Shown here: positions 7,043 through 38,415 of the stretch, one piece after another
How positions within the stretch are numbered: position 1 is the stretch's first letter
How the letters are laid out: every line of letters begins with the position of its first letter
Source of the DNA: an uncultured Alphaproteobacteria bacterium
GTDB taxonomy: Bacteria; Pseudomonadota; Alphaproteobacteria; MPNO01; UBA2964
Assembly (NCBI GenBank): GCA_951812775.1
Contig: OX638326.1
Span: forward strand, 3,049,391 to 3,113,390
Length of the DNA: 64,000 nucleotides
Reading direction: 5' to 3'
Translations under genes and position numbers: made by a program
Notes under the pieces: generated by a model
Told to the model about the DNA's origin: nothing
What the model saw: only the letters and a program-made list of their open reading frames with translations
Databases searched by the model: none

Positions 7043-7070
7043 CTTGAGATATTGTTCAACGGTGTTAGAT
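7043..7070 (+). promoter_or_regulatory. Probable sigma-70 type promoter of tRNA-Ser
   Basis: CTTGAG at 7043-7048 and TTAGAT at 7065-7070 are separated by 16 bases. They end 11 bases before the first base of the tRNA. CTTGA- as the -35 element is common in alphaproteobacterial stable-RNA promoters. This is a sequence match only. Confidence 0.45.
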
Positions 7071-7081
7071 TGTGCGCCGCT

Positions 7082-7171
7082 GGAGGGGTGGCCGAGTGGC
7101 TGAAGGCGCACGCTTGGAAAGCGTGTAGGCGGGCAACCGTCTCGAGGGTTCGAATCCCTCTCCCTCCGCCA
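7082..7171 (+). tRNA. tRNA-Ser(GGA)
   Basis: The 90-base sequence folds as a class II tRNA. The acceptor stem GGAGGGG (7082-7088) pairs with TCCCTCC (7161-7167). The anticodon loop TTGGAAA puts GGA at 7116-7118, reading UCC and UCU. A long variable arm, as in serine tRNAs, lies before the T arm GAGGGTTCGAATCCCTC. The discriminator is G and CCA is encoded (7169-7171). No duplicated 3' end or integrase was seen, so there is no sign that it serves as an attachment site here. Confidence 0.97.
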
Positions 7172-7179
7172 GATTTAAC

Positions 7180-7548: not shown

Positions 7549-7770
7549 AGGAAAAAATTGTATCACGCAGGATAATAGTGAGGAGGCCAATTCACCAAAA
7601 TGGAAAAACTTGACGCCTCTATAGGCTGTCCGCATTTCTTCAACTAATTCTTATAACTTTTAGAAATTCCACTTTCAGTTGATCTGTTTGTTAGGTTATC
7701 GTTCAAATACGAAATTTTGGCGTGCGATATCCTAAGCACGAATATGCAATAGGCGAGGCTTTGAGAAACA

Positions 7771-9068: not shown

Positions 9069-9233
9069 ATGGCCAAGAAACCAGTCCAAAGCGTTGCATC
9101 GAAACCGCCAGTCGGTCGGCCGTCCAAGCCCATGCCCAAGCCGATTCCGGATACGCCAAAGAATGTGGCCCGCGCGATTATGCGCGAGCCACCTAAGAAG
9201 AATTGGGGTTACCTCAAGAAGAAGCCCGGCTAG
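9069..9233 (+). CDS. 54-residue basic proline/lysine-rich protein
   Basis: This short gene begins MAKKPVQSVASKPPVGRPSK and contains a GRPSKP segment resembling an AT-hook. It then has PIPDTPKNVARAIM and ends PPKKNWGYLKKKPG. It has an excellent AGGAG site at 9057-9061, seven bases before the ATG. The protein is very basic, without membrane segment or signal peptide. It could bind nucleic acid, but that is inference from charge and the GRP motif. Its 3' end meets the end of the barrel-protein relic on the other strand (stop codons overlap by four bases). Confidence 0.6.
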   Translation: MAKKPVQSVASKPPVGRPSKPMPKPIPDTPKNVARAIMREPPKKNWGYLKKKPG

Positions 9234-9913
9234 AAGCGATATCGAACGCCAACCGTCACGTTGTGGAGCTCGGCTCGCTCTTTAGTAAAGCTCAGTTTAT
9301 CCGTCCCGAAGTACCTATATCCGGCTTGGATTGTTGCCTTTTCATTGATTGCGTATCCAATGCCAGCACCAATCTGGTAGGCAAAAGCCCAATCAGAATC
9401 ATCCGATGAAAGGGGGAAGGTCATTCCATTGACGGAAACTGACTTCATTTTTGCGGAAATTCAGGCCGTCCCCAACCCGCCACCGAAAAACGGGGTCCAG
9501 GGAGAACCAGTGTCAATGTCGTACCAAGCATTGACCATGAGACCGAGAGACCGGATGTCTCCGTTGACGTTCCCCTTCTCCCCATTCACCCTGGCCAGGT
9601 TTACGCCCTCAACAACGCCGGTAGCGTTCTTGATTTCCGCCGAATCGATGTCGCCCGTGCGCCAAGAAAGTTCCCCCTTAACGCGGAATTGGCCGAAATC
9701 ACGCCCAACCGAGCCATCGATTCCGAAACCTTTGTCAAAACTGTATTCGACTGTCCCTGAATAGCCATCGCCCGTTTCGTCTACGGCGTGATCCAATGGC
9801 TGCACCACGCCTAAATTCAATGAGCCGTACCAGCCCTTTGTACTATCGGCGTAGGCTGGCCAATTCAGCCCCAAAAGAACGGTCAAGCCGGAAACTTTCA
9901 CAAGGTTTTTCAT
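9230..9913 (-). pseudogene. Outer-membrane beta-barrel protein, in-frame TGA
   Basis: The 5' part (9913-9464) has a signal peptide ending PAYA-DS and barrel-like text (GWYGSLNLGVVQPL, FGIDGSVGRDFGQFRVKGEL). It stops at TGA 9463-9461. The same frame continues with ISAKMKSVSVNGMTFPL and ends IGYAINEKATIQAGYRYF and VGVRYRF, the terminal Phe expected of outer-membrane barrels. One nonsense change (for example TGG or CGA to TGA) thus cuts a barrel of about 227 residues after three quarters of its length. Without the last strands it should not insert properly. Confidence 0.7.
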
Positions 9914-9919
9914 TAGCTG

Positions 9920-9941
9920 TCTCTCTCTCTCTCTCTCTCTC
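9920..9941. repeat. (TC)11 / (GA)11 dinucleotide tract in 5' leader
   Basis: Twenty-two bases of perfect dinucleotide repeat lie 6 bases upstream of the barrel-protein ATG. On the coding (minus) strand the tract continues an AGGAG site into GAGAGA repeats. The repeat is thus part of the ribosome-binding region. Such tracts change length by slippage and can modulate translation. Confidence 0.9.
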
Positions 9942-10244
9942 CTGTTTCACATTATCCGGCTGGTGCCGGGCTTTGTGATTGACGGAAAGAGACAGTCAAC
10001 CCGCCTATTCCTCGAAGCGCCGGGAGCTACCCATTGCCTGAGATACGAGTGTTGTATTCAGCGGGAGACCCGACCTAGCGGGCTCCTTCCGTCATCACGA
10101 GGGGAAAATTCCTCTAAAAAGCTGATTGAGTCAAGCGGTTTGGGTAAAATCGTATATAATTCCCATTTTTTAAAACATACCGGTATGACCTTTGCTGATT
10201 ATTGGCGTAAAAATGAATTTGTTATGTGATTTCGGGAGAATATT
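9942..10244. other. Intergenic region without convincing gene
   Basis: No convincing gene is visible. An 88-codon frame from 9963 has unlikely composition (Cys/Arg-rich, no ribosome-binding site) and was not accepted. A TATAAT lies at 10155-10160 without a good -35 box. The GGGAG at 10234-10238 belongs to the next gene. Confidence 0.5.
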
Positions 10245-10856
10245 TTGTTTCGTTCCGTCATCGTTGTAATCTTGCTCGTGGGAGCATTCGGAGGACCACT
10301 TCTTGCGGCAACAGACGATAAGAATGCTATCAACCTCTATATATATTCACTGAAAGACCAAAACGGTAAGTTGGTTGGCCTTGGTAAGTTTTATGGAACA
10401 AGCGGGATGCGCCGGGCCGTCGGCAACACTTACCGCAAACTTAAACAAAAAAGCAGTCGTTCGAAAGTTGGCGGTTTGACTCTTATTAGGCCGAATAGTT
10501 GCTTTGCTGTCTATCTAAAGAAAAAGCCGGATAAGAATGGGCGTCCTCGCTACGGGTTAGCCCAGAAACCTGATCGAAAATCACTTCAGAAATATGTTAA
10601 TCGGCTTCGGAAACGGCGATTTTCAATTGTTCGTAGTATTGAATGCCATCGTGGCGGCACCGAAACTGGTTTGGCTGAATTCGGTTTCGAAGAACACTTA
10701 TGTCCGGCAAATGCGAAGGCTCGTGGGGAGCGTTATTGGATAAGACAACGGGCACCTGACGTTTACCATGTGCATTCCAGCCGTGGCACTTATACCCATA
10801 ATTTGCGTATCAAAGATCAAAAACGGCTCCAAAAAGCGGTCAAGAAAGCTAATTGA
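10245..10856 (+). CDS. Secreted basic protein of unknown function
   Basis: The start is TTG at 10245, chosen because GGGAG at 10234-10238 is correctly spaced and the reading gives a signal peptide (MFRSVIVVILLVGAFGGPLLAA). The 203-residue product is basic, with RKLKQKSSRSKVG, RLRKRRFSIVRSIECH and a C-terminal IKDQKRLQKAVKKAN. Three cysteines are visible. I do not recognise the family. After its TGA the same frame remains open for 92 more protein-like codons (next entry), so the present C-terminus may be premature. Confidence 0.6.
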   Translation: MFRSVIVVILLVGAFGGPLLAATDDKNAINLYIYSLKDQNGKLVGLGKFYGTSGMRRAVGNTYRKLKQKSSRSKVGGLTLIRPNSCFAVYLKKKPDKNGRPRYGLAQKPDRKSLQKYVNRLRKRRFSIVRSIECHRGGTETGLAEFGFEEHLCPANAKARGERYWIRQRAPDVYHVHSSRGTYTHNLRIKDQKRLQKAVKKAN

Positions 10857-11135
10857 ACCATCGACAGAATTTGCGGTGGTAAAGAAGACACTTTTTTCCC
10901 TTCTATTTTTTCAATTATCAAAGATGCCGTAAAACCCACGGAGAAGGAGAAGGAAGAAAATTTCGAGCAGGCTGTAAAAAAATGTTTCAAGAAATATGAA
11001 AAACCCTCAATAACAGCAGAGAACAGGCCGATAACGGAACAAGAACGTGCTAGCATCTTGGCCGAAAGAACCTCGATTCTTCATCGTTGCGGCATTATTC
11101 AAAAAACACGTGGGGAGCCTAAATGGCGGGGGTGA
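10857..11135 (+). other. In-frame open extension after TGA 10854-10856
   Basis: Directly after the stop of the preceding gene, in the same frame, 92 sense codons run to TGA 11133-11135. They read protein-like: ICGGKEDTFFPSIFSIIKDA, then KPTEKEKEENFEQAVKKCF, then ITEQERASILAERTSILHRC. There is no start codon at the beginning (only a TTG near 11057). The end overlaps the start of the next gene by 13 bases, a normal operon overlap. It is either the C-terminal part of a gene split by a nonsense mutation or a readthrough extension. Confidence 0.5.
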
Positions 11136-11782
11136 TCAAATTCAGGCGGGGACGGCAGCTCTTAAACTGGAATATCTTTCCGATCATAATTGGCTTACTT
11201 ACTGTAGCAATTATTTGGGATAGCGCGTCTCCAGCATTCGCTCAGGATGCCAAGCATTGCATCACCATAAGCAATGGCAAACGCGGGCAGGTTGTTAAAA
11301 ACAATTGCGGTAACTTGCTTGAAATTGTCTGGTGTCACTTAAAAAATAAAAAAGGGGTTAGAAGTGGGCTTTGTAATAACGGTAGAAACGGTCATTATTA
11401 CCAGAAGCACCGGACCCTCAAGCCAGGTGAGGCATATGAAAATCAATACTTTTTTCCCCTAGGCACCCGGATTCATTTTGGCGCTTGCTTTGGAAATTAT
11501 TATTCAGTCGATAGAAAATCCTCTAAGGGACGAAGCTATAACTGCAAAAATCGTAAAAAGAAGGCTAAAAATACAAGTAGCAGCGGAACTCGAGTAACCC
11601 CTACCTCAACTTCTACTGGGCGGGGCTCGTCTAGTACTAATCGTCGAGGGACACTTAAGCGCTCCAATATTAATAATCGGACCCGCGCACGGCCAAGAAC
11701 AACTAAATCGCGGACGACATCAAAACGCCGATCTACTTCGAAACGTCGTTCCACCAACAGACGGCAGAAGCGCAAATATTAG
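11123..11782 (+). CDS. Secreted Cys-rich protein with Arg/Ser/Thr-rich tail
   Basis: The 219-residue protein has a basic N-terminus, one hydrophobic segment and a probable signal-peptidase site (SPAFA-QD near residue 41). A domain of about 95 residues follows with six cysteines (HCITISNGK, VVKNNCGNLLEIVWC, SGLCNNG, FGACFGNYYS, YNCKNRKK). From about residue 150 it becomes low-complexity Ser/Thr/Arg (TTKSRTTSKRRSTSKRRST). A GGGGAG site precedes the ATG. The fold and role are unknown. The tail could bind anionic cell wall, LPS or nucleic acid. Confidence 0.6.
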   Translation: MAGVIKFRRGRQLLNWNIFPIIIGLLTVAIIWDSASPAFAQDAKHCITISNGKRGQVVKNNCGNLLEIVWCHLKNKKGVRSGLCNNGRNGHYYQKHRTLKPGEAYENQYFFPLGTRIHFGACFGNYYSVDRKSSKGRSYNCKNRKKKAKNTSSSGTRVTPTSTSTGRGSSSTNRRGTLKRSNINNRTRARPRTTKSRTTSKRRSTSKRRSTNRRQKRKY

Positions 11783-13645: not shown

Positions 13646-13982
13646 TAGAGTTCCCGTGTGAGACTGAAAGGCGGCTAATTTTCACTGCCATGGTCCGCGT
13701 TATAACGGAGCAGGGCGTAGATAAACAGGATAATGCCGCCCATCTCCATACCTTCTTCAACCGGCGTCCAGAGATTGTAGGCCAATGTGTCCATCAGATC
13801 TTTTCTGTCATAGATGTCCGTGCCAATTTCAACCCCAAGAGCACCGCCGAGAAAGATCGCGGCCGAGACGATAAACAGGGATCGTGTGGTCGTCGGCAGG
13901 TGAACCAAAAACCGCAAATACAGGGCAATAAAAATCAGCGTGATCGGTGCTGCCACGTAAACCCAGGAAAACGTCGTGAAAT

Positions 13983-15268
13983 GGACACCTCGAAGAACGT
14001 TCGGTTTGGCCGCTTGCGGCGTGATTTGACCGGGTGGGCGCGTCTGAGTGTCGGTTTTTCGAGCCGTTTTGCGTCGATTTGATCGGTTTAGCCGGTCGAA
14101 CCGGCCGTTCCGGCGTCATGTGGGCGCACTTCGCCCCTGGAGCCAGAGGAAACGGCGCATGTTATACGCCAGATTGGTCATGCCGATCTTGGCCTCGGCC
14201 CGGGCGATGCCGATGGTCCGAACCGAGAGCGCCATCAAGCCTTTCTGATGGGCGAAGACATGCTCGACGGCGGAGCGTACCGCCGAGCGCGCCGCGTTGG
14301 CCTTGGCCAGGGTCGCCGGCATCGGCTTGCCGCGCGGCTTGCGGAAGTGGATCTGGGAGCGCTTGCCTTGGCGCGCCAGCATCTTCTCGTTACGCTTGGA
14401 CCGATAGGCGGTATCCGCCCAGACCGGGCTCGCCGTGTTCTCCGGATCGATCAGACCGGCGAGCTGGCGGCCGTCATTGGCGGCGGCATCGGTGACGCGC
14501 CACTTGCGGATCAACCCGTGCCGCCGGTCCGTGGAGATGTGGTTCTTGTAGCCAAACGCCGGCACCATGATCTCCGGCCCCTTGGGGTGCCCATCCTCCA
14601 GACGCTTCACTCGGCCACGCTTCATGGTCCAGCGCGCATCCCGGTCTTTCTGGGCCAGCTTGGCCGGCTTGTCCTTCCACTCCTCTGGCACCTTGCCGGC
14701 CTTCAACGCCACCTTCTCCGGAACGCTGTTGCGCTGCCTGGGCGCCGCGACGATCGTGGCATCGACGATCTGGCCCGACAGCGCCAGGTAGCCATGGCCG
14801 CGCAGGTGTTCGTCGAAGCGATCGAACAACGCCTCGATCGCCTTGGCCTGCACCAGCAACTCACGGAACAGCCAGATCGTCTTGGCGTCCGGCACCCGGG
14901 CGTGAAGCCCCAGGCCCAGGAACCGCATGAAAGACAGCCGGTCGCGGATCTGGAACTCGGTTTGATCATCCGAGAGATTGTATAGTGCCTGCAACACCAG
15001 GATATTGAACATCAGAACGGGGTCATAGGGAGGCCAGCCACCCTGGCGCCGGTCCGAGCGACGTAGCACCCGGATCAAGGGCCGGCGAAACAACTCGAAA
15101 TCGACCAACTCACCAAGCCGAAGCAACGGATCACCCGCCGCCGACAGCGCCGCGTAACGCTCATCAAGATCGAAAAAACCGGGCTGATCCGACATTCCAT
15201 CCTCCATCAAGCCGATGAGAGAAGTGAAGCAGATCATGGCCAAAATGACGAGGTTTTTAGAGGCGCCC
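13983..15268 (-). mobile_element. IS5-family insertion sequence, copy 1 (1286 bp)
   Basis: The boundaries were set by comparison with the second copy at 31540-32825. The ends are imperfect inverted repeats, GGGCGCCTCTAAAAACCT against GGACACCTCGAAGAACGT, 13 of 18 matching. The element is flanked by AAAT on both sides (13979-13982 and 15269-15272), a 4-bp target duplication. It sits inside the membrane-protein gene. Both copies are exactly 1286 bp. Confidence 0.92.
14116..15195 (-). CDS. IS5-family DDE transposase, copy 1
   Basis: The 359-residue transposase has an N-terminal DUF772-type domain and a DDE domain. The first Asp is in IVDATIVAAP and the second in WADTAYRS. The Glu is in RSAVEHVFAHQK, which fits the R-x3-E-x6-K signature of the IS5 group. 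I chose the ATG at 15195 because GGAGG lies five bases upstream. The frame stays open further up through the IS end into the disrupted host gene. It differs from copy 2 at four residues near the N-terminus (D/A, V/A, W/R, N/K). Confidence 0.92.
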   Translation of the reverse strand: MSDQPGFFDLDERYAALSAAGDPLLRLGELVDFELFRRPLIRVLRRSDRRQGGWPPYDPVLMFNILVLQALYNLSDDQTEFQIRDRLSFMRFLGLGLHARVPDAKTIWLFRELLVQAKAIEALFDRFDEHLRGHGYLALSGQIVDATIVAAPRQRNSVPEKVALKAGKVPEEWKDKPAKLAQKDRDARWTMKRGRVKRLEDGHPKGPEIMVPAFGYKNHISTDRRHGLIRKWRVTDAAANDGRQLAGLIDPENTASPVWADTAYRSKRNEKMLARQGKRSQIHFRKPRGKPMPATLAKANAARSAVRSAVEHVFAHQKGLMALSVRTIGIARAEAKIGMTNLAYNMRRFLWLQGRSAPT

Positions 15269-15627
15269 AAATGATTAAGTGTCTCGTGGAAACCGGCAAT
15301 TTCATCCAGCGATAGAAAGTAGAACCCAAGCGCCAACCCGTACTAGGCGTGTTTCCAACGGTCGTCTTCCGCTCTTTTGCCTATGGCGATAAGCAACAAC
15401 AGAGATGCGACGATAAAGAGCGGAATGGTTGAGTACCAGGTCGGGATATTGCGCTCGAGATCGACATCAAACATTTCTCGAAGTCTCGATGGTACGCGCG
15501 TTATCTCGAAATGCCAGAATTATAAGGCGATATGCGCAATAAGAAGCAAAGCGGCGGGTATAAGGAGAATGGTGATGGTCCGCCTGATAGGCAGGTCGAC
15601 TTTCAATCTGAACATCCAGTGGCCTCC

Positions 15628-23786: not shown

Positions 23787-24961
23787 CTAACTTGGCCCAA
23801 CTACTTCATTGCCGGATGGAATAACAACGACTTGATCCTGCGGCGTTCGGGCAATGCCGGGCGGGTCTTCGCCGCGTTCCATTGCGTCGATAGCCTCGCT
23901 GAGCCGTCGCCGGAAGAGGACGACCCCACGATCCGACGTCGCTAAATTTTCCAGCGCGTGCCGGGTGATGGGGCGTTGGCTGACCTGCGCTTCCCAGTCA
24001 TCGGGTTCGCGCTGTTTGGTTTCGTAATCACGGATGACCGGTGCATCTGGTGGCTGAAAAATCTTTTTCTCATGATCAATCAGCTCGACATGAAACCCGA
24101 TGGTGTTCTCGTTATCGATCGGCACCCACCAGCCGACCATGCGGGCGCGTTCAGTCTCGCGATCAGGATCCGTGCCGGTTACCTCGGTCGGCGGTACCGA
24201 ACGCGCGGTGGGGACATAAATTGTCGAGGTCCTGGTTAGTTTGAAGCCGCTATCCAGATCGGTATCCGAATATAGGACACGTGGGTCTTTTTGTGGGCGT
24301 AGTCATATTCGGGTTTTACGGCCATCACGTCAGAGAACTCGAACAAACCCGGATTCCAACCATGCAGAATATTGGTGTGCACGGGGTCCATGGCATTCTC
24401 CTGCAATTGTAGCCAATTGCATTCAGCGACCTCGCCACGGCTATAATTACGATAGGCGAGATACTCGGCATTCTCATCTTCAAGGATATCGTAACGCGGC
24501 AAGAGGGGTTTTTTGTCCAGCGGTCCCATATAGGCAAAGACCAGTCCCTTATATTCCTCGGCCGGATACCAAGGCTGGCGAATTTCATCTTTGTAATTGC
24601 TTTCCTCTGGCTCACCGGGCTGGTCAAGGCACCTGCCTTCTTCGTTATAGAGCCAGCCGTGATAGCAGCAGCGAATGCCGTTCTCCTCGATCCGGCCATA
24701 TTCCAATGAGGTGCCCCGATGGCAACAATGGGCGCCGAGGATGCCGACCTTTCCCGACTTGTCGCGATAGGCGATGATCTCTTCGTCGAGGATTTTGAGG
24801 AATTTTGGGAGGTCAGTCAGTTCTGACGACATACAAACCGGCTGCCAGTAGCGCCGCATCAGCTCGCCCATCGGCGTCCCAAATCCAACATGCGTAAGCC
24901 TTGGATCTTCGTCCGGCACAACTGCGTTCTGCCCATAACCTGAGATGTCGCTATTACTCAT
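23787..24961 (-). pseudogene. Rieske-type ring-hydroxylating oxygenase alpha subunit, frameshifted
   Basis: The N-terminal part has the Rieske 2Fe-2S motif CCHRGTSLEYGRIEENG followed by CCYHGW. The mononuclear iron motif is NAMDPVHTNILH (D-x2-H-x4-H). Near 24270 the reading leaves frame and stops. The next frame continues SDTDLDSGFKLTRTSTIYVP to the C-terminal part WWVPIDNENTIGFHVEL, ending at 23787. A two-base AT gain or one-base loss explains it. Whole, it would be about 390 residues, like phthalate/phenoxybenzoate-type oxygenases. The third of three ATGs (24961) is best spaced from GGGAG. Confidence 0.75.
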
Positions 24962-25063
24962 CATCATCTCCCATGCCGGTCGAATTATTATGGAATACTC
25001 GTTACCAGCTTTAGGAAGGATATGAAGCGGCTCCGCCTAATGACAATGAACCGAGAGTGACAC

Positions 25064-25969
25064 TTATCTGGCCCGTGATGTTACAGCGTTATGAAGTTCT
25101 TCGAGGAATACTTTGCTGGCTGCTGACATGACGACATTTGATCGCGTAATTGCAGCGATGGTCCAGGGTTGAATCGGGGTTTGCAGGTCAATTGGCGTGA
25201 TCGGCCACATTTGTGGGCGGTCAGCGAATATCTGCTTGGGCACCAGGACGATGTAATCGCCTTTTTCCACCAGCGCGAGCGCGCAGGTAGATGAAGTGCA
25301 TTCGATAGTGCTTCGAGGCGGTTCCATGCCGTTGAGGCGAAAAGTTTGTTCATAGACATCCCGGCTTTCGCCACGTCGGCCAAAAACCACCCATTCTTCT
25401 GACAGCAAGTCCTCAAGCCGTAATCCGCGTTTCTTTACCAACGGGTGATCGGCACGCACTGCCGGGGTGAGCACATCCTCGACCAGAACATTAATTTCAA
25501 GGTCACCGACGGCTGGGCGCTCGGGCATCAGGCAGACGGCCACATCTACCTCGCCTGACCTTACCGCCGGAACCACGTGCGGATAGACCAGCTCTTCAAT
25601 ATGCACACTCACCTTTGGTCTGGAGGTTTTTAAATTCAGGATGGCACGCGGCATGAGGTCAATGGCAACGGTCGGGGACGCGCTGACATTGATCTCGCCT
25701 GTTGTCACATCTTCGATGTTTTCAATTTCGTTGATCGCGTTATCCAGCTCGGCCTCAATGACGTGCGCACGTTTGATCAGCGCTTCGCCAGATTGTGTCG
25801 GGATGACGCTGTGGCTGAGGCGATGTAGCAGCTCACATCCCAGCTCCGCCTCCAGCAGTTTTATGCTTTTCGTAATGGCCGGTTGTGATCGGTTGAGATC
25901 GCGGGCGGCTTGTCGCACGCACCCCGTACGTCCAACGGCGACAAGATTTCTGAGTTGGTCGCGCTTCAT
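25064..25969 (-). CDS. LysR-family transcriptional regulator
   Basis: The 301-residue protein has an N-terminal helix-turn-helix (about 1-62: GCVRQAARDLNRSQPAITKS, ELGCELLHR). An effector-binding domain of two alpha/beta lobes follows (VDVAVCLMPERPAV, ADHPLVKKRG). It resembles the aromatic-responsive branch. It is divergent from the extradiol-type gene and probably controls that operon (26099-33197), perhaps also the Rieske gene downstream on its own strand. Complete. Confidence 0.9.
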   Translation of the reverse strand: MKRDQLRNLVAVGRTGCVRQAARDLNRSQPAITKSIKLLEAELGCELLHRLSHSVIPTQSGEALIKRAHVIEAELDNAINEIENIEDVTTGEINVSASPTVAIDLMPRAILNLKTSRPKVSVHIEELVYPHVVPAVRSGEVDVAVCLMPERPAVGDLEINVLVEDVLTPAVRADHPLVKKRGLRLEDLLSEEWVVFGRRGESRDVYEQTFRLNGMEPPRSTIECTSSTCALALVEKGDYIVLVPKQIFADRPQMWPITPIDLQTPIQPWTIAAITRSNVVMSAASKVFLEELHNAVTSRAR

Positions 25970-26098: not shown

Positions 26099-26923
26099 TT
26101 GATCTGGCCAGCACGGCTGCATCATTTTGCTCTAACCAGCGAAGCTCCCGGGGCGATGGCTGATTGGTATGTTCGAGCGATGGGCTACACCAAAGAGGCA
26201 CACGGCGATGGCTGGCTTTTGCATGGCGAAGAGCGTCATCTCATCATATTACCTGGCAAAAAATCCCAGGTTGGCTTCTCTTCCTATGCCGTCACGGACG
26301 TAGATCATCTAGAAGACGTTTCAGAGAAAATCTCCGCAGCAGGATGTGGTGTCACCCAATTTGATACGCCTCTATTCGAGGATGGCGCGATTTCGATCTC
26401 TGATCACGATGGCAATGTTTTTGTGTTCGGGATTCCTAAAAAGACCAGCTCAGGCAATGACGCTTTGCCCGGTCGGTTGCAGCATATCGTATTTGCGACC
26501 ACCCAACTGGCAAAACAGGTCGATTTCTTTACCAGTAAGATCGGCTTTCGGAAATCGGATACGGTACTGGCTTCCGATCAAGACCCGACAGCATGTTTCA
26601 TGCGATCTGATCCAGAGCATCACAGCCTCGGTCTGTTTCGAGCAGCGGAAGCGCGGCTGGATCATTTCTGTTTTGAGAGCACCTGCTGGAATGATATCCG
26701 TGACTGGGGCGACCATTTTTCCGAGCAGCGCATTCCGATTGTCTGGGGGGCGGGACGTCATGGCGCTGGCAATAACCTGTTTATCTTTGTTGAGGACCCC
26801 GACGGCAATAAAGTCGAAATCTCGGCAGAGATTGAATTGATGACATGGGAACAAGAACCGCGTGAATGGCCCCATGAGGAACGCACCCTGAACCTCTGGG
26901 GAACGGCCTGGTTGCGATCTTGA
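26099..26923 (+). CDS. VOC-superfamily extradiol-dioxygenase-like protein
   Basis: The two-domain VOC protein resembles type I extradiol dioxygenases (BphC/catechol 2,3-dioxygenase). Candidate metal ligands are His in LQHIVF and LDHFCFE and Glu in DPDGNKVEISAE, in the C-terminal module. The only start codon in frame is TTG 26099, with no ribosome-binding site. Upstream codons from 26078 read (K)TTSENHLIWPARLHHF after a GGGGAT, as if an ATG at 26078 had become AAG. Expression may be impaired. First gene of the LysR-divergent operon, 75 bases before the molybdopterin gene. Confidence 0.75.
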   Translation: MIWPARLHHFALTSEAPGAMADWYVRAMGYTKEAHGDGWLLHGEERHLIILPGKKSQVGFSSYAVTDVDHLEDVSEKISAAGCGVTQFDTPLFEDGAISISDHDGNVFVFGIPKKTSSGNDALPGRLQHIVFATTQLAKQVDFFTSKIGFRKSDTVLASDQDPTACFMRSDPEHHSLGLFRAAEARLDHFCFESTCWNDIRDWGDHFSEQRIPIVWGAGRHGAGNNLFIFVEDPDGNKVEISAEIELMTWEQEPREWPHEERTLNLWGTAWLRS

Positions 26924-26998: not shown

Positions 26999-29900
26999 AT
27001 GCGTTTGTCGCTCATTCTTATCGGGCTGCACATTCTTCTGAAATATACCGCTTGGCGGTATCCGGCCTTTGCCAAACGTTTGAAGGAACACAACATGTCT
27101 GCCCAGATCAAAACCTGGGACGATTCAGTCGGTCGTTGTTTTATATTTGAAAACGGCAAGGTTTCCTCAAAGAGCGGCATTAACCCAGATGCTGATATCT
27201 GTATGTCGTTCAAGACGGAGAGCCTTGCGGTCAATCTGTTGATGCCGCCGATAAACTGGCTCGATCAGATTAACGCCCTGAAAGACTTCAAACTCAAGAT
27301 GGACGGCGACGACGGGCTCGCTAACTGGTTTGCGCAAACCACCATGATGACCCAGAGCATCGGCTGGAGTTGGGGGAGCGAGTCTGCTGATGGCATGAAG
27401 CGCACCGTCAATATGACAAATGGCGGACCGGTCTTTGTCGACGTTAAGGACGAAAAAATCATTCGCCTGACACCGATAGATCTTGCCGACGATGACACGC
27501 AACCCTGGACCATTAAGGCACGGGGGATGGAATTCACCCCGCCGCGTAAAACGACATTGGCGCCGCATGGCCAGAACGCCAAATCAATCGTGCACTCGCC
27601 GGATCGGCTGCTGTATCCGATGAAGCGGGTGGATTTTGATCCCGACGGTGAGCGCAACACCCAAAATCGTGGCATTTCGGGGTATGAAAGAATTTCATGG
27701 GATGAGGCGATTGATATCGTCGCGACTGAAATCAAGCGCCAGAAGCGGGTCCACGGACCGGGGTCTATCGCTAACAGTCATGGTTCGCATCATACTTGGG
27801 GCAATATTGGCTATTACCTGAGCGCGCTTTACCGGTTTCGCAATGCGGTTGGCATGACCCACCTGCATCATAACCCGGATAGCTGGGAAGGTTGGTATTG
27901 GGGTGCTGTACATCATTGGGGACACAGCCTGCGCGTCGGGCAGTCCGAAACTTATGGCACTGTTGAGGATTGCTTGCAGAATTGTGATCTGGTGGTGTTT
28001 TGGTCCGCCGATCCCGAGACCACGAGCGGATCATATGGCGCACAGGAAGGCACCATTCGCCGCCAGTGGTTGAAGAACCCGGATCTCGGTATCGACGTTG
28101 TTCATGTCGATCCGTACTACAACGCTTCAGCGCAGTTCCTGCCCGGCAAATGGTTTGCGCCAAAGCCCACGACATCTGTTGCGATGGCGATGGCAATTGC
28201 CTATGTGTGGATTCAGGAAGGTCTGTACGACAAGGAATATGTCGAGACCCGTACCGAAGGTTTTGATGTCTGGAAGGCCTATCTGGTTGGCGATGAAGAC
28301 GGAGTTGCAAAGACACCGGAATGGCAGGAAGCAGAAACCGGGGTGCCTGCCAAAGATGTCCGCGCCCTTGCCCGTGACTGGGGAAAGAAGCGCGTCTATC
28401 TCGCGCCCGGTGGCTGGGGCAATGGCCATGGCGGGGCCTGCCGCAATCAGACCGGCATCCAGTGGGCGCGTGTCATGGTGTGTCTTGTCGCGATGCAGGG
28501 ACTTGGCAAGCCAGGCGTTAATATGGGCAATCTGCAATGGGGCTGTCCGGTTGACTTCAATTTCTATTTCCCGGGCTATGCGGATGGCGGCATGTCGGGT
28601 GATCTCGAAAATACGTCGATGCCGGTTGAGCTTTATCAGCGGATGCCGCAGCTCCCGACAATGAATGCGTCTTTTCAGAAAATTCCCCGGATCAAAATGC
28701 CGGAAGCCATTTTGAACGGAAAAACAGAAGGTCAGCCCTGGGTTGGTAAATCAATAGAGCATCAATTCGGCAAGATGACCTATCCCGCGCCAGGCCATGC
28801 ACCGGTCCGGATGTTGTATAAATATGGTGGCTCCATTTTGGGGACCATGAACAACACCAACCGCTGGGTAAAAATGTACCAGTCGGAGAATATTGAGTTC
28901 GTGGTCAATCAATCTATCTGGGACGAAGGTGAGGCAAAGTTTGCTGATATTATTCTGCCTGCCTGCACAAATTTTGAACGACCCGATATCAGCGAATGGG
29001 CCGGTCTCGGCGGCTATGGTCATCATGGTCAGCAGCAACTTAATCACCGGGTCATTGTATTCCAGGCGCCGGCGATCAAACCCTTGGGCGAGTCCAAATC
29101 TGATTTCTGGATCTTTAACGAGATCAGCAAAAAGCTTGGCCTGTCGAACTATTTCTCCGAGGGGATAAATGAAATCGACTGGGTTAAACGCCAGTTTGAT
29201 GCCTCAGATCTGCCGTCCCAGATTAGCTGGAAGAAATTCATCAAGAAGGGCTACTTCGTTGTGCCGAGCGAGAAGGAAGAGTTTCGTGCACCAGTGTCTT
29301 TCCGCTGGTTCTGGGAAGGTCGCAAAAAAGATGTGCCCGAGCCACAGCCCTTGCCTTCAGATTATACCGAAGAATTCCTCAAAGGATTGCAAACTCAGTC
29401 GGGCAAACTGGAATTTGAATGCAACAGCCTGAAGCGGTTCGTAGATCCGGAACGACCGCCAATTGTCAAATATGAACCGGCCTGGGAAGGCCCGCATAGC
29501 GGCGAGCGATTTGAAAAGTTTCCACTACAATTGCTGACACCACATTCCAAATACAGTTTCCACACCCAGGGGGATGGCAAGGACAGCTTTCTGCTTAATA
29601 TTCCTGATCATCGGGTGCTGGTTGATGGCTGGTATTATTGGGTAATCCGCCTCAATGCAGAAGATGCTGCCGCGCGTGGCATAAAGAAGAATGATCTTGT
29701 GAAAGTGTATAATGATCGGGGCTGTGTGATTTGTGCCGCCTTGCCGACTGCCCGCTTACCGAGAGGCGTGTGCCATGGGTATGAGTCGTCAGCGATGTAT
29801 GAGCCGATGGGTGAACCCGGTAAATCGGTGGATCGCGGCGGTTGCCTCAATTTGTTGACGCCGGACAAAACCCAAACGAAATCGACGCACTCTCTTGCAG

Positions 29901-30004
29901 GGGCCAATGCTTTGGTCGAAATCGAATCATGGGATGGCAATACTGATTTTGTATCGGCGGCCTTCATTGACGGACACCCCGATGGTGTCGCGGCAGCCGA
30001 GTAG
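26999..30004 (+). CDS. Molybdopterin oxidoreductase, transhydroxylase large-subunit-like, with SCP2-like N-terminus
   Basis: The 1001-residue DMSO-reductase-family protein has an extra N-terminal part (about 30-125; [27 protein letters not shown]) resembling an SCP2 lipid-binding domain. The catalytic part then begins [15 protein letters not shown]. It is strikingly like the large subunit of pyrogallol-phloroglucinol transhydroxylase of Pelobacter. H264 and D294-S295 (HNPDSWEG) have the same 30-residue spacing as His144 and Asp174-Ser175 of that enzyme, from memory. [10 protein letters not shown] (about 522-531) corresponds to its tyrosine region. No N-terminal Fe-S cysteines or TAT signal, so it is cytoplasmic. 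The partner follows 16 bases later. The substrate is inferred only. Confidence 0.85.
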
Positions 30005-30020
30005 GTGGTGGGAGAAGAAA

Positions 30021-30863
30021 ATGTCTAAATGGAACCTGATCATTGATGTTGCTGAATGCACCAACTGCAACAACTGTACTCTCGCGGCCATGGATGAATA
30101 TATCGACAATGACTGGCCAGGCTATTCCGCACCGATGCCGAAGCATGGTCATCGCTGGATCGATATCAAACAAAAGGAACGTGGCGAGGTACCCTTTATG
30201 GATATCGCCTATGTGCCGACCATGTGCAATCACTGCGACAATGCCCCCTGCATGAAGGCGGCGGGCGATGATGGGTCAACCACCAAGCGCGGAGACGGGA
30301 TTGTGCTGATTGATCCGGAAAAGGCCAAAGGTCGTAAGGATCTGGTTGATGCTTGCCCCTATGGCCACATTTGGTGGAATGAGGAACTTGAACTGCCGCA
30401 AATCTGGACCTTCGATGCCCATCTTCTTGATCAGGGCTGGCAACAGACCCGCGGTCAGCAATCCTGCCCTACCGGTGCGATGAAAGCGGTGAAGCAGGAC
30501 GACGCGTCGATGCAAAAAATGGCGGAGGACGAAGGGCTGGAAGTCATGCAGCCCGACCTCGAAACCCGGCCGCGCGTCTGGTACCGCAATCTTTGGCGCT
30601 ACAGTAAAGCCTTTATTGGCGGCAGTGTGTCCGCTGAGGCCGATGGTGTTGTCGATTGCGTTGAAGGCGCTACGGTCATCCTGTCGAAAGACGGGAACAA
30701 AGTTGCTGAATCCGTGAGCGACATATATGGCGACTTTAAATTCGACAAACTTGATGAGAATAGCGGCAGCTATACAGTTGAGATAATCGCTGAAGGTCAC
30801 GATGCAAAAACGGTTACCGCGGCGTTGGAGGACAGCGTATATCTCGGGGAAATCCGCCTGTAG
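30021..30863 (+). CDS. Fe-S electron-transfer subunit with CnaB-like C-terminal domain
   Basis: This is the 280-residue partner of the molybdopterin subunit. Its ferredoxin-like part contains CTNCNNC (13-19), CNHCDNAPC, DACPYG and SCPTGAM, eight cysteines that suit two 4Fe-4S clusters. The C-terminal 75 residues form a transthyretin/CnaB-like beta domain (EGATVILSKDGNKVAESVSD, FKFDKLDE). The same domain order is known in the pyrogallol transhydroxylase small subunit. The stretch PQIWTFDAHLLD has no cysteines where that protein, from memory, has a C-x2-C pair, so one cluster seems absent. ATG 30021 follows GGGAG. Confidence 0.85.
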   Translation: MSKWNLIIDVAECTNCNNCTLAAMDEYIDNDWPGYSAPMPKHGHRWIDIKQKERGEVPFMDIAYVPTMCNHCDNAPCMKAAGDDGSTTKRGDGIVLIDPEKAKGRKDLVDACPYGHIWWNEELELPQIWTFDAHLLDQGWQQTRGQQSCPTGAMKAVKQDDASMQKMAEDEGLEVMQPDLETRPRVWYRNLWRYSKAFIGGSVSAEADGVVDCVEGATVILSKDGNKVAESVSDIYGDFKFDKLDENSGSYTVEIIAEGHDAKTVTAALEDSVYLGEIRL

Positions 30864-31539
30864 CGGAATTTAAGGAGATGGTTGATGGCGACAGGTTTTG
30901 AGCCAGCCACGGGCTCCTCTGTATGGAAGGGCTCTGATTTCGTCGGCAATGACGAGTGGATTGTCTCGTTGTCTCCCGAAAATCTCCAAGAAATTGATGC
31001 GGCTTTGCGTTTTGCGAAAGAAACAAAGTGGCCCGTTCACAAGCTTAGTCAAAACGAGTTTCCGCTCCCCGTTCTCGGCAGTACCTTAAGTGCACTAGCT
31101 TCGGAGCTTGAGACCGAACGTGGATTTGCAGTCATCCGGGGAGTTCCGGTTAATCACTACAGCGAAGAAGAGAACAAATTTGTCAGCTTCGGGCTTTGTT
31201 CGCATTTTGGCAGTGTTATTCCGCAAAGTCGCGAGGGTGATTGGATCAATCATGTGATCGATATTAGTGATCAGGGTTCGGCGCCGAAGCCTGAGCTTGA
31301 TCACGTCCTGAAGCGCAAGCAACTTCGGACCAATCATCGTGGCGGCGAGCTGGATTTCCATACCGATACCACAGACGTTTTCGCTCTGTTTTGCCTGCAA
31401 CCTGCTAAAAGCGGGGGCAGGAGCCGTCTGGTTAGTGCCGCGACATTGCACAATATAATCGGTGAGACCAAACCGGATTATCTCGAAGCGCTCTATGACG
31501 GTTACTATTATATGTCGCAGCCGGACGATAAGGCCATTT

Positions 31540-32825
31540 GGGCGCCTCTAAACACCTCGTCATTTTGGCCATGATCTGCTTCACTTCTCTCATCGGCTTG
31601 ATGGAGGATGGAATGTCGGCTCAGCCCGGTTTTTTCGATCTTGATGAGCGTTACGCGGCGCTGTCGGCGGCGGGTGATCCGTTGCTTCGGCTTGGTGAGT
31701 TGGTCGATTTCGAGTTGTTTCGCCGGCCCTTGATCCGGGCGCTACGTCGCTCGGACCGGCGCCAGGGTGGCCGGCCTCCCTATGACCCCGTTCTGATGTT
31801 CAAGATCCTGGTGTTGCAGGCACTATACAATCTCTCGGATGATCAAACCGAGTTCCAGATCCGCGACCGGCTGTCTTTCATGCGGTTCCTGGGCCTGGGG
31901 CTTCACGCCCGGGTGCCGGACGCCAAGACGATCTGGCTGTTCCGTGAGTTGCTGGTGCAGGCCAAGGCGATCGAGGCGTTGTTCGATCGCTTCGACGAAC
32001 ACCTGCGCGGCCATGGCTACCTGGCGCTGTCGGGCCAGATCGTCGATGCCACGATCGTCGCGGCGCCCAGGCAGCGCAACAGCGTTCCGGAGAAGGTGGC
32101 GTTGAAGGCCGGCAAGGTGCCAGAGGAGTGGAAGGACAAGCCGGCCAAGCTGGCCCAGAAAGACCGGGATGCGCGCTGGACCATGAAGCGTGGCCGAGTG
32201 AAGCGTCTGGAGGATGGGCACCCCAAGGGGCCGGAGATCATGGTGCCGGCGTTTGGCTACAAGAACCACATCTCCACGGACCGGCGGCACGGGTTGATCC
32301 GCAAGTGGCGCGTCACCGATGCCGCCGCCAATGACGGCCGCCAGCTCGCCGGTCTGATCGATCCGGAGAACACGGCGAGCCCGGTCTGGGCGGATACCGC
32401 CTATCGGTCCAAGCGTAACGAGAAGATGCTGGCGCGCCAAGGCAAGCGCTCCCAGATCCACTTCCGCAAGCCGCGCGGCAAGCCGATGCCGGCGACCCTG
32501 GCCAAGGCCAACGCGGCGCGCTCGGCGGTACGCTCCGCCGTCGAGCATGTCTTCGCCCATCAGAAAGGCTTGATGGCGCTCTCGGTTCGGACCATCGGCA
32601 TCGCCCGGGCCGAGGCCAAGATCGGCATGACCAATCTGGCGTATAACATGCGCCGTTTCCTCTGGCTCCAGGGGCGAAGTGCGCCCACATGACGCCGGAA
32701 CGGCCGGTTCGACCGGCTAAACCGATCAAATCGACGCAAAACGGCTCGAAAAACCGACACTCAGACGCGCCCACCCGGTCAAATCACGCCGCAAGCGGCC
32801 AAACCGAACGTTCTTCGAGGTGTCC
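31540..32825 (+). mobile_element. IS5-family insertion sequence, copy 2 (1286 bp)
   Basis: It has the same length as copy 1 and is in opposite orientation. Only five base differences were found, all in its first 265 bases. The flanks are ATTT at 31536-31539 and AATT at 32826-32829, a near-perfect four-base target duplication (one mismatch). It interrupts the TauD-type gene and, by polarity, may reduce expression of genes downstream. Confidence 0.92.
31613..32692 (+). CDS. IS5-family DDE transposase, copy 2
   Basis: This is a 359-residue transposase with the same DDE residues as copy 1 (VDATIVAAP, WADTAYRS, VEHVFAHQK). The ATG is five bases after GGAGG. It carries Ala, Ala, Arg and Lys at the four positions where copy 1 has Asp, Val, Trp and Asn. 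GGRPPYDPVLMFKILVLQ is the expected family form, so this copy looks like the less mutated one and is probably functional. Long frames on its other strand are shadows. Confidence 0.93.
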   Translation: MSAQPGFFDLDERYAALSAAGDPLLRLGELVDFELFRRPLIRALRRSDRRQGGRPPYDPVLMFKILVLQALYNLSDDQTEFQIRDRLSFMRFLGLGLHARVPDAKTIWLFRELLVQAKAIEALFDRFDEHLRGHGYLALSGQIVDATIVAAPRQRNSVPEKVALKAGKVPEEWKDKPAKLAQKDRDARWTMKRGRVKRLEDGHPKGPEIMVPAFGYKNHISTDRRHGLIRKWRVTDAAANDGRQLAGLIDPENTASPVWADTAYRSKRNEKMLARQGKRSQIHFRKPRGKPMPATLAKANAARSAVRSAVEHVFAHQKGLMALSVRTIGIARAEAKIGMTNLAYNMRRFLWLQGRSAPT

Positions 32826-33234
32826 AATTCGGCTGCAACTATTTCGACCAAGCGCGTTCCGGTCTTTCGCCGTAAAGGCGACAAAGTCGAAGGCTATTAT
32901 ATTTCGCAAGTCGTCCAGCGTGCGCTTGACCATGGTGGATTTGAGTACAATGCGATCGAAGACGATGCGCGCGAGGAATTGCAGCGCGTTGCGGAAGCTC
33001 CGGGTGTTGCGCACGAGTTTGATCTCGAAGCCGGGGATTTGTTGGTCGTGAATAATCACGCCGTCTTGCATGCTCGCTATGATTATGAGGACTATCCCGA
33101 GATTGAACGCCGTCGTCACCTGTTTCGGCTGTGGATGGCAAATACGCCAGAGATGTTATCGAAGACATTTGTGGCGCCCTCCGAAAAATTCTCGTAAAGA
33201 ACCCTCAACAACCTATCAACGTTAGGACAGAACT

Positions 33235-34158
33235 ATGAAAGCGGCATATTTCGAAGAGCATGGCGGACCTGAAGTTATCAAACTGGGCGAGTTGCCAGAC
33301 CCTGTTGCCGGAGAGGGTGAGATTGTTATCGATATTCATGCTGCTTCCGTGAACGGTGCGGACTGGAAAGTCCGCGAAGGATCTTACAAGCAGGTGCCCT
33401 ATTTTCCTTATGTTCTGGGCCGGGATTTTTCCGGCACGGTCTGTGAGGTTGGTGATGGCGTCTCTGATTTTGCAATTGGGGATGAAGTGTTTGGCGTTTG
33501 CGAAGTCGGGCAGGAAGGCACGTACTGCGAAAAGATTGCGATGAATGCAGCCCTTTGCGCCCCTAAGCCTGCGGGGATGTCGCATATCGATATCGCGGCC
33601 CTGGCTCTGATCGGCATAACCGCTGTGATCTCGATTGAAGACACCCTAAATCTCAAATCTAATGAAAAGATACTGATCCAGGGCGGTGCGGGTGGCGTTG
33701 CCAGCTTCGGGATTCAGCTCGCCAAACATCTAGGCGCTCATGTGATCAGTACGACGAGTGCCGGCAATGTTGATTACGTGAAGGGTCTCGGGGCAGACGA
33801 GGTCATTGACTATAATGCACAGGATTTTCGTGACGTCGTTTCTGACTGTGATGTGGTTTTTGACACGGTTGGCGGCGATGTGGCGCCAGGCGCGTTTGAG
33901 GTCCTGAAACCGGGCGGACGCGCTGTCTTTATCGCATCCGGGGTTAAGGGACTGGAATCGCCGTCGAGTGATTTTACTTCCCTTCGGCCAAATGTTTATC
34001 GGGACCGGCCACATCTGGAACGGGTGGTGGAGCTAATCGAAGTAGGCGCCGTCACAGTGCCGGCGGTGAAACTGTTCTCACTGGATGACGTGATTGAAGC
34101 GCAGAAACTCAGTCAGTCGCGTCATTTCCGTGGCAAGCTCGTCTTTAACTATCGCTAA
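33235..34158 (+). CDS. Zinc-independent quinone oxidoreductase (MDR superfamily)
   Basis: The 307-residue protein has the GroES-like N-terminus (VLGRDFSGTVCEVGDGV, IGDEVFG) and a Rossmann part with ILIQGGAGGVASFGIQLAKH as the NADPH loop. It ends HFRGKLVF. The catalytic zinc ligands of alcohol dehydrogenases are missing, as in NADPH:quinone reductases. It may reduce quinones formed from hydroxylated aromatics. AGGACAG precedes the ATG. Its end overlaps the convergent LLM gene by 14 bases. Confidence 0.88.
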   Translation: MKAAYFEEHGGPEVIKLGELPDPVAGEGEIVIDIHAASVNGADWKVREGSYKQVPYFPYVLGRDFSGTVCEVGDGVSDFAIGDEVFGVCEVGQEGTYCEKIAMNAALCAPKPAGMSHIDIAALALIGITAVISIEDTLNLKSNEKILIQGGAGGVASFGIQLAKHLGAHVISTTSAGNVDYVKGLGADEVIDYNAQDFRDVVSDCDVVFDTVGGDVAPGAFEVLKPGGRAVFIASGVKGLESPSSDFTSLRPNVYRDRPHLERVVELIEVGAVTVPAVKLFSLDDVIEAQKLSQSRHFRGKLVFNYR

Positions 34159-37479: not shown

Positions 37480-38415
37480 TCAGTTGCCAGGCGCGTATTT
37501 GCCACCGGTCTGCGGTGTTTGCACGCCCTCGCCACCGCTCCCCGCATGCTGCAGCCGCGTAACACGGTCCCAGGTTCGCTTGAGGTCGTCTCTGATATGC
37601 ACGGTCAGGCAGCCGAGCCCTTCAATTTCCAGCTCGATCTTGTCGCCATCCATGAACGGGTTAAGCCCGCGATGGTTGGTTCCCGTCGCCAGCACATCAC
37701 CCGGTTCCAGCGTGTGTATGGAACTTACCCACGAAATACAGCGCGGGATTTTGTGCGCCATGTCGTCGGTGTTGAAGTTCTGCATTACTGTACCGTTGTT
37801 GTGCAGTTGCACATGTAATTTTTGCGGATCCGCAATCTCGTCCTTCGTGACGATATAGGGTCCCATTGGTGCAAAGGTTTCGCGCCCTTTCATCTGATAA
37901 AACGTGTTGCCGGGCGGCAACAAACCGCGAGCCGAACCGTCAATAAAATTGGTATAGCCAAAGACATAATCCATCGCTTCTGCTTCGGAAACATTACTGG
38001 CCCGCTTGCCAATGATCAGCGCAATCTCGGCCTCGCCTTCAAAGATTGTGGCCGGAATATCCGGGAGAACCATCGTATCGCCATCGCCAATAACGCTATT
38101 GGGCGATTTGAAGAAGGCGTTAATCGGTGCTGGTTCTTCGCGGGTGCCGTCTTCCATATAGTTTACCGCCATGCAGTCGATATTGCCGGGTTTTGGCAGG
38201 GGCGGCCGAATGCGTACGCTGCTTACCGGTACGCCATCACCGTTAGCTGCGGCGGCTTCAATGCGATCTCTATAAATGTCGAAATTCTCGATGAGCCCGT
38301 TAATTCGGTCATGCGCTCCGATATGGGGCACTTCATTGGCAATGTCGGTGATATCAACCACGGCCTCGCCCTTGAGGACGCCCAATTTGAAATCATCAAA
38401 ATGCAGTAACTTCAT
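37480..38415 (-). CDS. Fumarylacetoacetate hydrolase family protein
   Basis: The 311-residue protein has the FAH core: FFKSPNSVIGDGDTMVLP, the metal-binding EGEAEIALIIGKRA (two Glu) and the Asp in GYTNFIDGSARGLL. It also has GDVLATGTNHRGLNPFMDGD and ends GLGCLTVHI. Family members hydrolyse or decarboxylate acylpyruvates from ring cleavage. It is first in a short operon with the SDR and YaiI genes and divergent from the HsaA/HpaH-type gene at 38577. Confidence 0.9.
   Translation of the reverse strand: MKLLHFDDFKLGVLKGEAVVDITDIANEVPHIGAHDRINGLIENFDIYRDRIEAAAANGDGVPVSSVRIRPPLPKPGNIDCMAVNYMEDGTREEPAPINAFFKSPNSVIGDGDTMVLPDIPATIFEGEAEIALIIGKRASNVSEAEAMDYVFGYTNFIDGSARGLLPPGNTFYQMKGRETFAPMGPYIVTKDEIADPQKLHVQLHNNGTVMQNFNTDDMAHKIPRCISWVSSIHTLEPGDVLATGTNHRGLNPFMDGDKIELEIEGLGCLTVHIRDDLKRTWDRVTRLQHAGSGGEGVQTPQTGGKYAPGN

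Follow-up and report, generated by a model that had tools for sequence, protein, structure and literature searches.

We describe here an AthL/AthS-type molybdenum enzyme of the pyrogallol-phloroglucinol transhydroxylase family, encoded by two adjacent genes in a 64,000-nucleotide stretch of contig OX638326.1 from an uncultured Alphaproteobacteria bacterium (the window, to whose positions all coordinates refer). Its large subunit is fused at the N terminus to a domain with the SCP2 fold, and its small subunit lacks four cysteines that presumably bind one iron-sulfur cluster. Full-text searches of the open-access literature returned no recognisable publication on either of these two architectural changes, the fusion to SCP2 and the missing ligands of one small-subunit cluster. 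The analysis as a whole suggests an anaerobic hydroxyl-moving enzyme that has been rebuilt for another use, perhaps feeding O2-using ring cleavage.

An AthL/AthS-type pair with conserved catalytic residues

The large subunit lies at 26999-30004 (+ strand, 1001 aa) and the small AthS-like Fe-S subunit at 30021-30863 (+ strand), for which we took the ATG at 30021, the TTG at 29895 that the open reading frame (ORF) finder had used being only an upstream extension. Searched against the PDB with phmmer, the large subunit matched AthL of Pelobacter acidigallici (4v4c_A) with E = 2.2e-290 (969 bits, residues 135-981 on 6-870, 53% identity in the alignment), and the small subunit matched 4v4c_B (E = 3.5e-78) from end to end (2-280 on 2-274), as an AthS-type subunit with a C-terminal beta domain that adjoins AthL. 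The PDB held no further close chain for the large subunit: the next matches were trimethylamine N-oxide and dimethyl sulfoxide (DMSO) reductases, at E = 1e-68 or weaker, and the best formate dehydrogenase reached 8.8e-17. The Pfam family AhtL-like_1st (PF21423) scored 84.7 bits against a cut-off of 27. A full-length AlphaFold2 model of the large subunit (predicted local distance difference test (pLDDT) 83.5, predicted template-modelling score (pTM) 0.85) could be overlaid on 4v4c_A with a template-modelling (TM) score of 0.94 by target length and a root-mean-square deviation (rmsd) of 2.0; formate dehydrogenases in the structure match list scored 0.50-0.71 by target length. We assign the pair to the PF21423-bearing AthL/AthS sequence family, within the serine-coordinated RhL/PgtL group. 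The transhydroxylase kinship proposed in the initial annotation therefore stands, and the placement among formate dehydrogenase-type enzymes that it had named as a refuting result did not occur, AthL being far nearer by E value, structural TM score and tree.

The catalytic part of the large subunit, of the bis(molybdopterin guanine dinucleotide) type (27395..30004, + strand), contains H264, D294, S295 (the Mo ligand), W296 and Y527. In an alignment with AthL, H264, D294, S295 and Y527 fell on H144, D174, S175 and Y404, with the Mo-ligand serine and the tyrosine in place; the His-to-Asp-Ser spacing given in the initial annotation (H264, D294-S295 against 144, 174-175) thus proved right. Across the relatives described below, the catalytic His, Ser and Tyr were present in 111/111 aligned rows and the Asp in 95/96 fused and 15/15 unfused rows, in an alignment from which 28 names had been dropped (copies, pieces and contig-cut sequences) and in which loci L002 and L132, one gene, were both counted.

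The N-terminal extension has an SCP2 fold

Relative to AthL, the large subunit is extended at its N terminus by about 130 residues, close to the 125 of the initial annotation, which had suspected an SCP2-like domain there. An AlphaFold2 model of residues 1-132 (26999..27394, + strand) had a pLDDT of 74.6 and a pTM of 0.64, and in the full-length model residues 1-80 reached a pLDDT of about 91-95. When the 1-132 model was compared with the PDB by Foldseek, the first 38 matches all either were SCP2 proteins or carried an SCP2-like domain (best E = 2.9e-6), and VIA aligned 111 residues with human SCP-2L at Z 14.1 and rmsd 2.3. SCP-2L, UbiJ-SCP2 and Pisa1 were among the structural matches, with 8-25% identity in such matches. 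Pfam returned nothing for the isolated window N terminus, even at E = 10. In the N termini of 51 relatives, SCP2 (PF02036) was the commonest weak Pfam match (12/51, best E = 0.0017), and the alkylsulfatase C-terminal family, which also has an SCP2-like fold, matched weakly in 4/51; a profile built from the same 51 N termini found no SCP2 among PDB sequences. The suspected domain is thus confirmed at the level of the predicted structure: as modelled, the N-terminal 130 or so residues have an SCP2 fold that is recognised from structure, not from sequence.

Judged by substitution rates, the extension is under purifying selection and hence no chance extension of the ORF: the ratio of nonsynonymous to synonymous substitution rates (dN/dS) was 0.03 against the nearest same-genus copy and rose to 0.28 for the remotest of the four copies compared, dS being close to saturation. 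A spurious start codon as the source of the domain was also rejected, since the domain was carried by 83/85 locus ORFs (the best 80 loci and five from relatives, with L009/L026 and L015/L091 both counted) and the remaining two were cut by contig ends.

The fusion defines one clade across several phyla

A scan of genome contigs returned at least 503 relatives, of which the best 80 were kept, so that distant and unfused relatives are under-represented; four pairs of rows represent the same gene twice (L009 and L026, L015 and L091, L002 and L132, L011 and L129). Fused AthL was found in Moorella, Sporomusa, Gracilibacter, Desulfobacula, Dehalococcoidales, SAR116, Magnetospirillum, Xanthobacteraceae and Betaproteobacteria, and eight plasmid records, from Rhizobiaceae, Burkholderiaceae and Salipiger, also matched. 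Transhydroxylases of Chloroflexi have been noted earlier (PMC3971608). In genome samples, 9/297 genomes matched in the phylum of L073's genome (5 fused and 6 unfused genes), 5/299 in the phylum of Sporomusa (3 fused and 3 unfused genes) and 6/399 in the order of L104's genome, and in an even sample of the window's own phylum a strong match occurred in 1/398, the window itself. Given the last two proportions, we conclude that the enzyme is rare.

In an LG tree of the catalytic core, from which L132, L017, L018 and six near copies were left out, one branch (support 100) parted 90 fused from 12 unfused rows; the sister group of the fused clade comprised Pelobacter AthL and L111. The same split (32 fused, 8 unfused) was recovered from 40 rows under a mixture model. 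Both trees were quick searches, and the LG tree carries a flag for long branches meeting (L118 with the outgroup). Because a single branch separates fused from unfused proteins in both trees, a single fusion event suffices to explain the sequences, with SCP2-fused AthL as one clade across several phyla. The SCP2 fusion is a widespread subfamily of one origin and no peculiarity of the window organism. An SCP2 profile found no stand-alone SCP2 gene at 14 unfused loci, whose flanks were mostly 1.5 kb.

Two variations in gene layout were seen among the relatives. On a Sinorhizobium terangae plasmid (L110), the SCP2 and catalytic parts are separate ORFs (7070-7558 and 9106-11568) about 1.5 kb apart, as though something had been inserted at the domain border. 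In three Actinomycetota loci (L083, L092, L098) the gene for AthS precedes that for AthL instead of following it.

Ligands of one AthS cluster are lost in most fused loci

The window AthS keeps 8/12 ligand cysteines, namely those of FS1 (C13, C16, C19, C149) and FS3 (C69, C72, C77, C112), and has A23, W129, D132 and G145 at the FS2 ligand positions. With nine cysteines in the whole ORF, it is too poor in cysteine for three [4Fe-4S] clusters. The four lost cysteines we take to be one cluster, FS2, lying between FS1 and FS3, on the basis of the NarH-type ligand pattern.

Of 94 fused AthS proteins, 21 have the full set of twelve cysteines and 73 an incomplete one; the alignment dropped 18 names and counts L002/L132 and L015/L091 twice each. 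All 73 lack both cysteines of a C-x-x-C motif (Pelobacter chain positions 126 and 129), where Trp is found in 72 and Asp in 73; as this W-x-x-D is nearly fixed, the replacement would have been selected rather than the outcome of drift. Loss at the remaining two positions of the presumed cluster (23 and 145) is looser, with 19 and 26 of the 73 retaining a cysteine. The eight remaining cysteines are kept, the FS3 set in 94/94 and the FS1 set complete in 90/94. In all 14 unfused loci (13 genes), the window genome's own paralogue included, the twelve cysteines are intact. This paralogue is an unfused AthLS-like pair, L002/L132, at G000:C1:2111962-2114331 of the same genome; similar pairs (L017, L018, L025) occur in the order.

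Where the phylum is recorded, the 21 keepers belong to Thermodesulfobacteriota, Bacillota, Chloroflexota, Actinomycetota, Acidobacteriota and Myxococcota, and one of them, L089, is a metagenome-assembled genome called Proteobacteria. The 73 that have lost cysteines comprise 53 Pseudomonadota and 20 others, namely the window itself and records that lack a phylum label. The loss maps to one change on the mixture tree (support 97) and to two on the LG tree. We considered two explanations for the loss and rejected both: the SCP2 domain as a substitute for the lost cluster, since the partners of the 21 AthS with a full cysteine set are fused as well, and adaptation to O2 as the whole cause, since the paralogue in the same genome retains its cysteines.

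Genomic context in the window and its relatives

The gene order in the window is LysR, VOC-AthL-AthS-TauD-QOR, LLM, ECH, SDR-FAH, acyl-CoA dehydrogenase-OCD. The divergent LysR-type regulator (25064..25969, - strand) is also present in the same-genus genome G003 and was not seen in the G007 stretch. Directly upstream of AthL lies a two-domain VOC protein resembling extradiol dioxygenases (26099..26923, + strand), which scored 77 bits for Pfam Glyoxalase and 90 bits, under its cut-off, for NCBIfam catechol_2_3, and matched 3b59 (E = 2.6e-14) and the catechol 2,3-dioxygenase 1mpy (E = 1.7e-9) in the PDB. Its H129, H189 and E240 fit the 2-His-1-carboxylate triad of type I extradiol dioxygenases; in the set VOC8, among the rows with the residue, the triad His is found in 8/8 and the Glu in 7/7, and the window VOC is 34% identical to that of SAR116. 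Downstream of AthS, a TauD-family Fe(II)/2-oxoglutarate dioxygenase gene (30882..33197, + strand) is interrupted by an insertion sequence (31535-32830) that encodes a DUF772/DDE_Tnp_1 transposase; a second copy of this element, 99.5% identical over 1296 bp, lies at 13978-15273 on the opposite strand. One same-genus genome (L125) has an unsplit relative of 340 aa in the corresponding position. Since the TauD region found no match in L125 at the DNA level, the insertion was deduced from the broken ORF together with the second copy of the element. The fifth gene of the block encodes a zinc-type quinone oxidoreductase (QOR; 33235..34158, + strand). An FAH-superfamily hydrolase resembling maleylpyruvate hydrolase and HpcE (37480..38415, - strand) is supported by a Pfam match and by 1gtt (E = 6e-50) and 6jvv (E = 7e-43). 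Elsewhere in the window, a Rieske-domain ORF of 243 aa (24236-24967) is apparently short for a full oxygenase alpha subunit and may be broken, and 49779-52208 encodes another Mo enzyme, unrelated to the first: a xanthine-oxidase-family molybdenum subunit with MoCoBD domains.

The host respires O2, its genome encoding one COX1 (E = 4e-165), in keeping with the aerobic organism presumed at first. Two key genes of the reductive phloroglucinol route, those for the cyclohydrolase (DPGC) and the lyase (TAL), have no match in the window genome. The DPGC profile, which detected the gene in the five control genomes with E values no higher than 5.2e-94, gave no match there, and three relatives gave weak DPGC matches of 28-31% identity; TAL was not found in the window genome, G007, G009 or G010, with profile matches in 10/14 genomes.

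Four same-genus stretches (G007, G004, G001, G003) keep AthL-AthS, QOR, LLM, ECH, SDR and FAH, and the VOC gene is present in both stretches in which the 5' side of AthL can be read (G007, G003). More widely, the AthS neighbour was found in 74/86 loci by a codon-usage gene caller and in 42/81 by an ORF-length caller. With profiles that were built from the very loci then counted, the fused gene stood with at least two of DPGC, HOHD and TAL in 10/80 loci; the families used were cyclase-family, 3-hydroxyacyl-CoA-dehydrogenase-family and BKACE genes, with an SDR as PGR. An SDR was also present in 8 of those 10 loci, the PGR profile being a generic SDR, and loci with PGR alone (8/80) or DPGC alone (1/80) were not counted. 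Of these ten, seven belong to the group with twelve cysteines; the other three, from Xanthobacteraceae, are close to the window protein. Another 11 of the 80 loci carry a VOC or FAH gene, by sets built here, none of them among the 21 AthS keepers, L068 lying outside that alignment as a near copy of L067. The SAR116 locus L067 (5117-15424) carries a BphC-type VOC, VOC8, FAH, fused AthL and AthS, together with class V aminotransferase, FAD aromatic-hydroxylase-like and MetE-like genes. In the annotated plasmid loci, VOC and FAH were both near in 4/4, OmpW or an 'outer membrane protein transport protein', which we take to be FadL-like, in 4/4, and an AMP-binding acyl-CoA synthetase in 2/4; a further four plasmid stretches, unannotated around the gene, lie outside these counts.

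The phloroglucinol pathway PGR-DPGC-TfD-TAL has been described for Clostridium scatologenes in a publication that also reports the cluster from marine alpha- and gammaproteobacteria, Mesorhizobium and Bradyrhizobium, and whose main text contains no occurrence of the term 'SCP2' (PMC10470551).

A proposed hydroxyl transfer and its alternatives

With a little less than even confidence, we propose that the window pair is an AthL/AthS-family redox-neutral hydroxyl-transfer enzyme that feeds oxygenolytic ring cleavage; its reaction, direction, substrate, location and the role of its SCP2 domain are what we infer here. The heterodimer, probably cytoplasmic, would move a hydroxyl between polyhydroxybenzenes with no net oxidation and no use of O2, the chemistry taking place at the Mo-bound Ser295 site with His264, Asp294 and Tyr527. 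Redox-neutral oxygen transfer is described for the Pelobacter enzyme (PMC10420851), and the reverse reaction from phloroglucinol to pyrogallol has been invoked (PMC12203004). The SCP2 domain would have been fused once, in an ancestor that may have served an anaerobic phloroglucinol route, and may present or retain a hydrophobic polyphenol or a bound co-substrate, or act as a structural lid. In the Pseudomonadota branch, window included, one AthS [4Fe-4S] cluster would have been lost, which hydroxyl transfer would tolerate because no electrons need leave. In the simplest chemistry, phloroglucinol, or a substituted phloroglucinol or resorcinol, would become an isomer with neighbouring hydroxyls that an extradiol enzyme could open; in the window genome this ortho-diol would pass to the extradiol-type VOC dioxygenase for opening and to the FAH hydrolase for cutting, rather than into the reductive phloroglucinol route. 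In the fully specified version, aerobic Pseudomonadota have made an anaerobic Mo transhydroxylase the O2-independent opening step of a pathway that depends on O2. The enzyme would run backward, converting meta-triols, for example phloroglucinol, into ortho-diols, would have shed one cluster because no electrons have to leave in this reaction, would use SCP2 to hold hydrophobic polyphenols or the hydroxyl-donor co-substrate, and would hand its product to VOC and FAH. We regard this version as rather unlikely to hold in every part.

A number of observations weigh against this proposal. Four residues that we presume, beyond the four catalytic ones, to line the AthL substrate pocket are replaced in the window protein (R153 by Tyr273, W354 by His477, F468 by Trp581 and C557 by Leu670), so that the substrate may not be pyrogallol or phloroglucinol and is probably something other than pyrogallol itself. 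The active-site loops 264-272 and 526-554 fall below pLDDT 50 in the full-length model, and we therefore draw no pocket claim from it. The identity of the lost cluster depends on the NarH-type ligand pattern, and the apparent loss of one cluster would be no proof that electrons never leave. The VOC link holds within the genus and not deeper: VOC and FAH of the window's kinds were not seen in the same-family genomes G009 and G010 or the same-order genome G022 (stretches of 19.5, 8.1 and 13.7 kb, AthL 79-88% identical), and TauD, broken in the window, is present in only 2/4 same-genus stretches (G007 and G004), which together weaken the case. Across the relatives, 59/80 loci have neither VOC/FAH nor two phloroglucinol genes, and the close relatives L031, L035 and L053 have the reductive route. 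SAR116 has both contexts, with VOC-FAH-AthL-AthS and a HOHD-PGR-cupin-DPGC group about 10 kb apart on one contig of G065. The publications consulted yielded no activity report for any SCP2-fused member.

As an alternative, a net hydroxylase of the RhL/RhS kind would place a water-derived hydroxyl on a 1,3-dihydroxybenzene, send two electrons through AthS or straight to a quinone, and deliver an ortho-diol to the VOC enzyme; RhL and the Pelobacter enzyme are placed in one serine-coordinated group (PMC10100899), an extradiol enzyme needs an ortho-diol and its gene adjoins AthL, and a quinone oxidoreductase lies in the same block. The disappearance of four cysteines of one AthS cluster would, however, break the usual electron path, and the unfused paralogue L002/L132 of the same genome retains all twelve; we rate this reading as unlikely. 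The same ligand loss speaks against an electron input path and makes a reductive enzyme, as suggested by the initial annotation, less likely. An enzyme that removes hydroxyls reductively from catechols or polyphenols, as gut catechol dehydroxylases do, would share the DMSO-reductase superfamily and the substrate class, but catechol dehydroxylases are reported to cluster beside acetylene hydratase, apart from transhydroxylase (PMC7028382), and acetylene hydratase is only a weak match to the window protein (E = 3e-11); we find this very improbable.

The SCP2 fold raises the alternative that the domain holds a lipid-tailed ring (an alkylresorcinol, acylphloroglucinol or quinone precursor) for the enzyme to hydroxylate or rearrange, as UbiJ and UbiT, SCP2 proteins, serve ring hydroxylation of lipid-tailed substrates in ubiquinone synthesis, UbiT acting alongside O2-independent hydroxylases and occurring in Zymomonas as a fusion with UbiU (PMC6747719). 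UbiJ-SCP2 is among the best structural matches, and the plasmid loci have their OmpW/FadL-like protein and, in two of four, an acyl-CoA synthetase. Against this, the fusion stands beside phloroglucinol-pathway genes in the ten loci noted above, from anaerobe groups (a label taken, as is 'aerobe' for other taxa, from taxon names) and Xanthobacteraceae, and none of the 18 window proteins scanned around the gene is of a ligase, OmpW or FadL family. Because the plain phloroglucinol pathway is found with the fusion too, it is unlikely that a lipid substrate is the common reason for the fusion; besides AthS, no neighbour family recurs in more than 15/86 loci. A lipid substrate, or the sterol-like one first suggested, is thus not supported, and we consider the reading with a lipid-tailed ring improbable for the window enzyme. 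Finally, the operon might be a decaying remnant, under loss in this strain and no longer relevant, given the insertion sequence inside TauD and an AthL that runs through several frames in same-genus G003. In that locus (L131, 7738-11608) AthL and AthS both occupy several frames, by real decay or assembly error. The AthL, AthS and VOC reading frames of the window are nevertheless open, AthL is under strong purifying selection, and other members of the genus retain the block, so we give decay very little credence.

The pair represents a subfamily of one origin, in several phyla, of a textbook but little-studied enzyme, and the cluster loss makes an old question testable, namely what purpose Fe-S clusters serve in a redox-neutral transhydroxylase: if a natural enzyme works with one cluster missing, the clusters are not all required as an electron wire. 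The pair also opens a genetic approach to the ways in which bacteria that respire O2 may process phloroglucinol-type rings such as flavonoid A-rings and phlorotannins.

Comparison with known systems

The fold of the window's N-terminal domain is, as modelled, shared with SCP-2L of MFE-2, UbiJ and the C-terminal domain of the sec-alkylsulfatase Pisa1, and a likeness of UbiT to SCP2 is known from its publication (PMC6747719); the window domain differs from these in having no Pfam match and in being fused to a molybdenum enzyme. The PGR-DPGC-TfD-TAL pathway of C. scatologenes comprises the gene families that accompany SCP2-fused AthL in 10/80 loci, whereas the window genome has no DPGC or TAL that our searches could find. 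RhL/RhS of Azoarcus anaerobius, likened here by description only, is assigned to the same serine-coordinated group (PMC10100899) and differs in carrying out a net hydroxylation with an electron acceptor. The unfused paralogue L002/L132 likewise pairs a DMSO-reductase family subunit with an AthS-like partner, but is about 35% identical, has no SCP2 domain and keeps all twelve AthS cysteines. The nearest known system is AthL/AthS of P. acidigallici (PgtL, 4v4c), which is homologous over the whole catalytic and small subunits and shares the Mo-ligand Ser, the His, the Asp and the Tyr. From a narrowly defined Pelobacter type, with twelve AthS cysteines and the R153, W354, F468 and C557 pocket, the window pair departs on both counts by its sequence: the four pocket residues are replaced and the four AthS cysteines of one presumed cluster are lost. 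To this the window pair adds an SCP2 domain, an O2-respiring host and a different gene neighbourhood.

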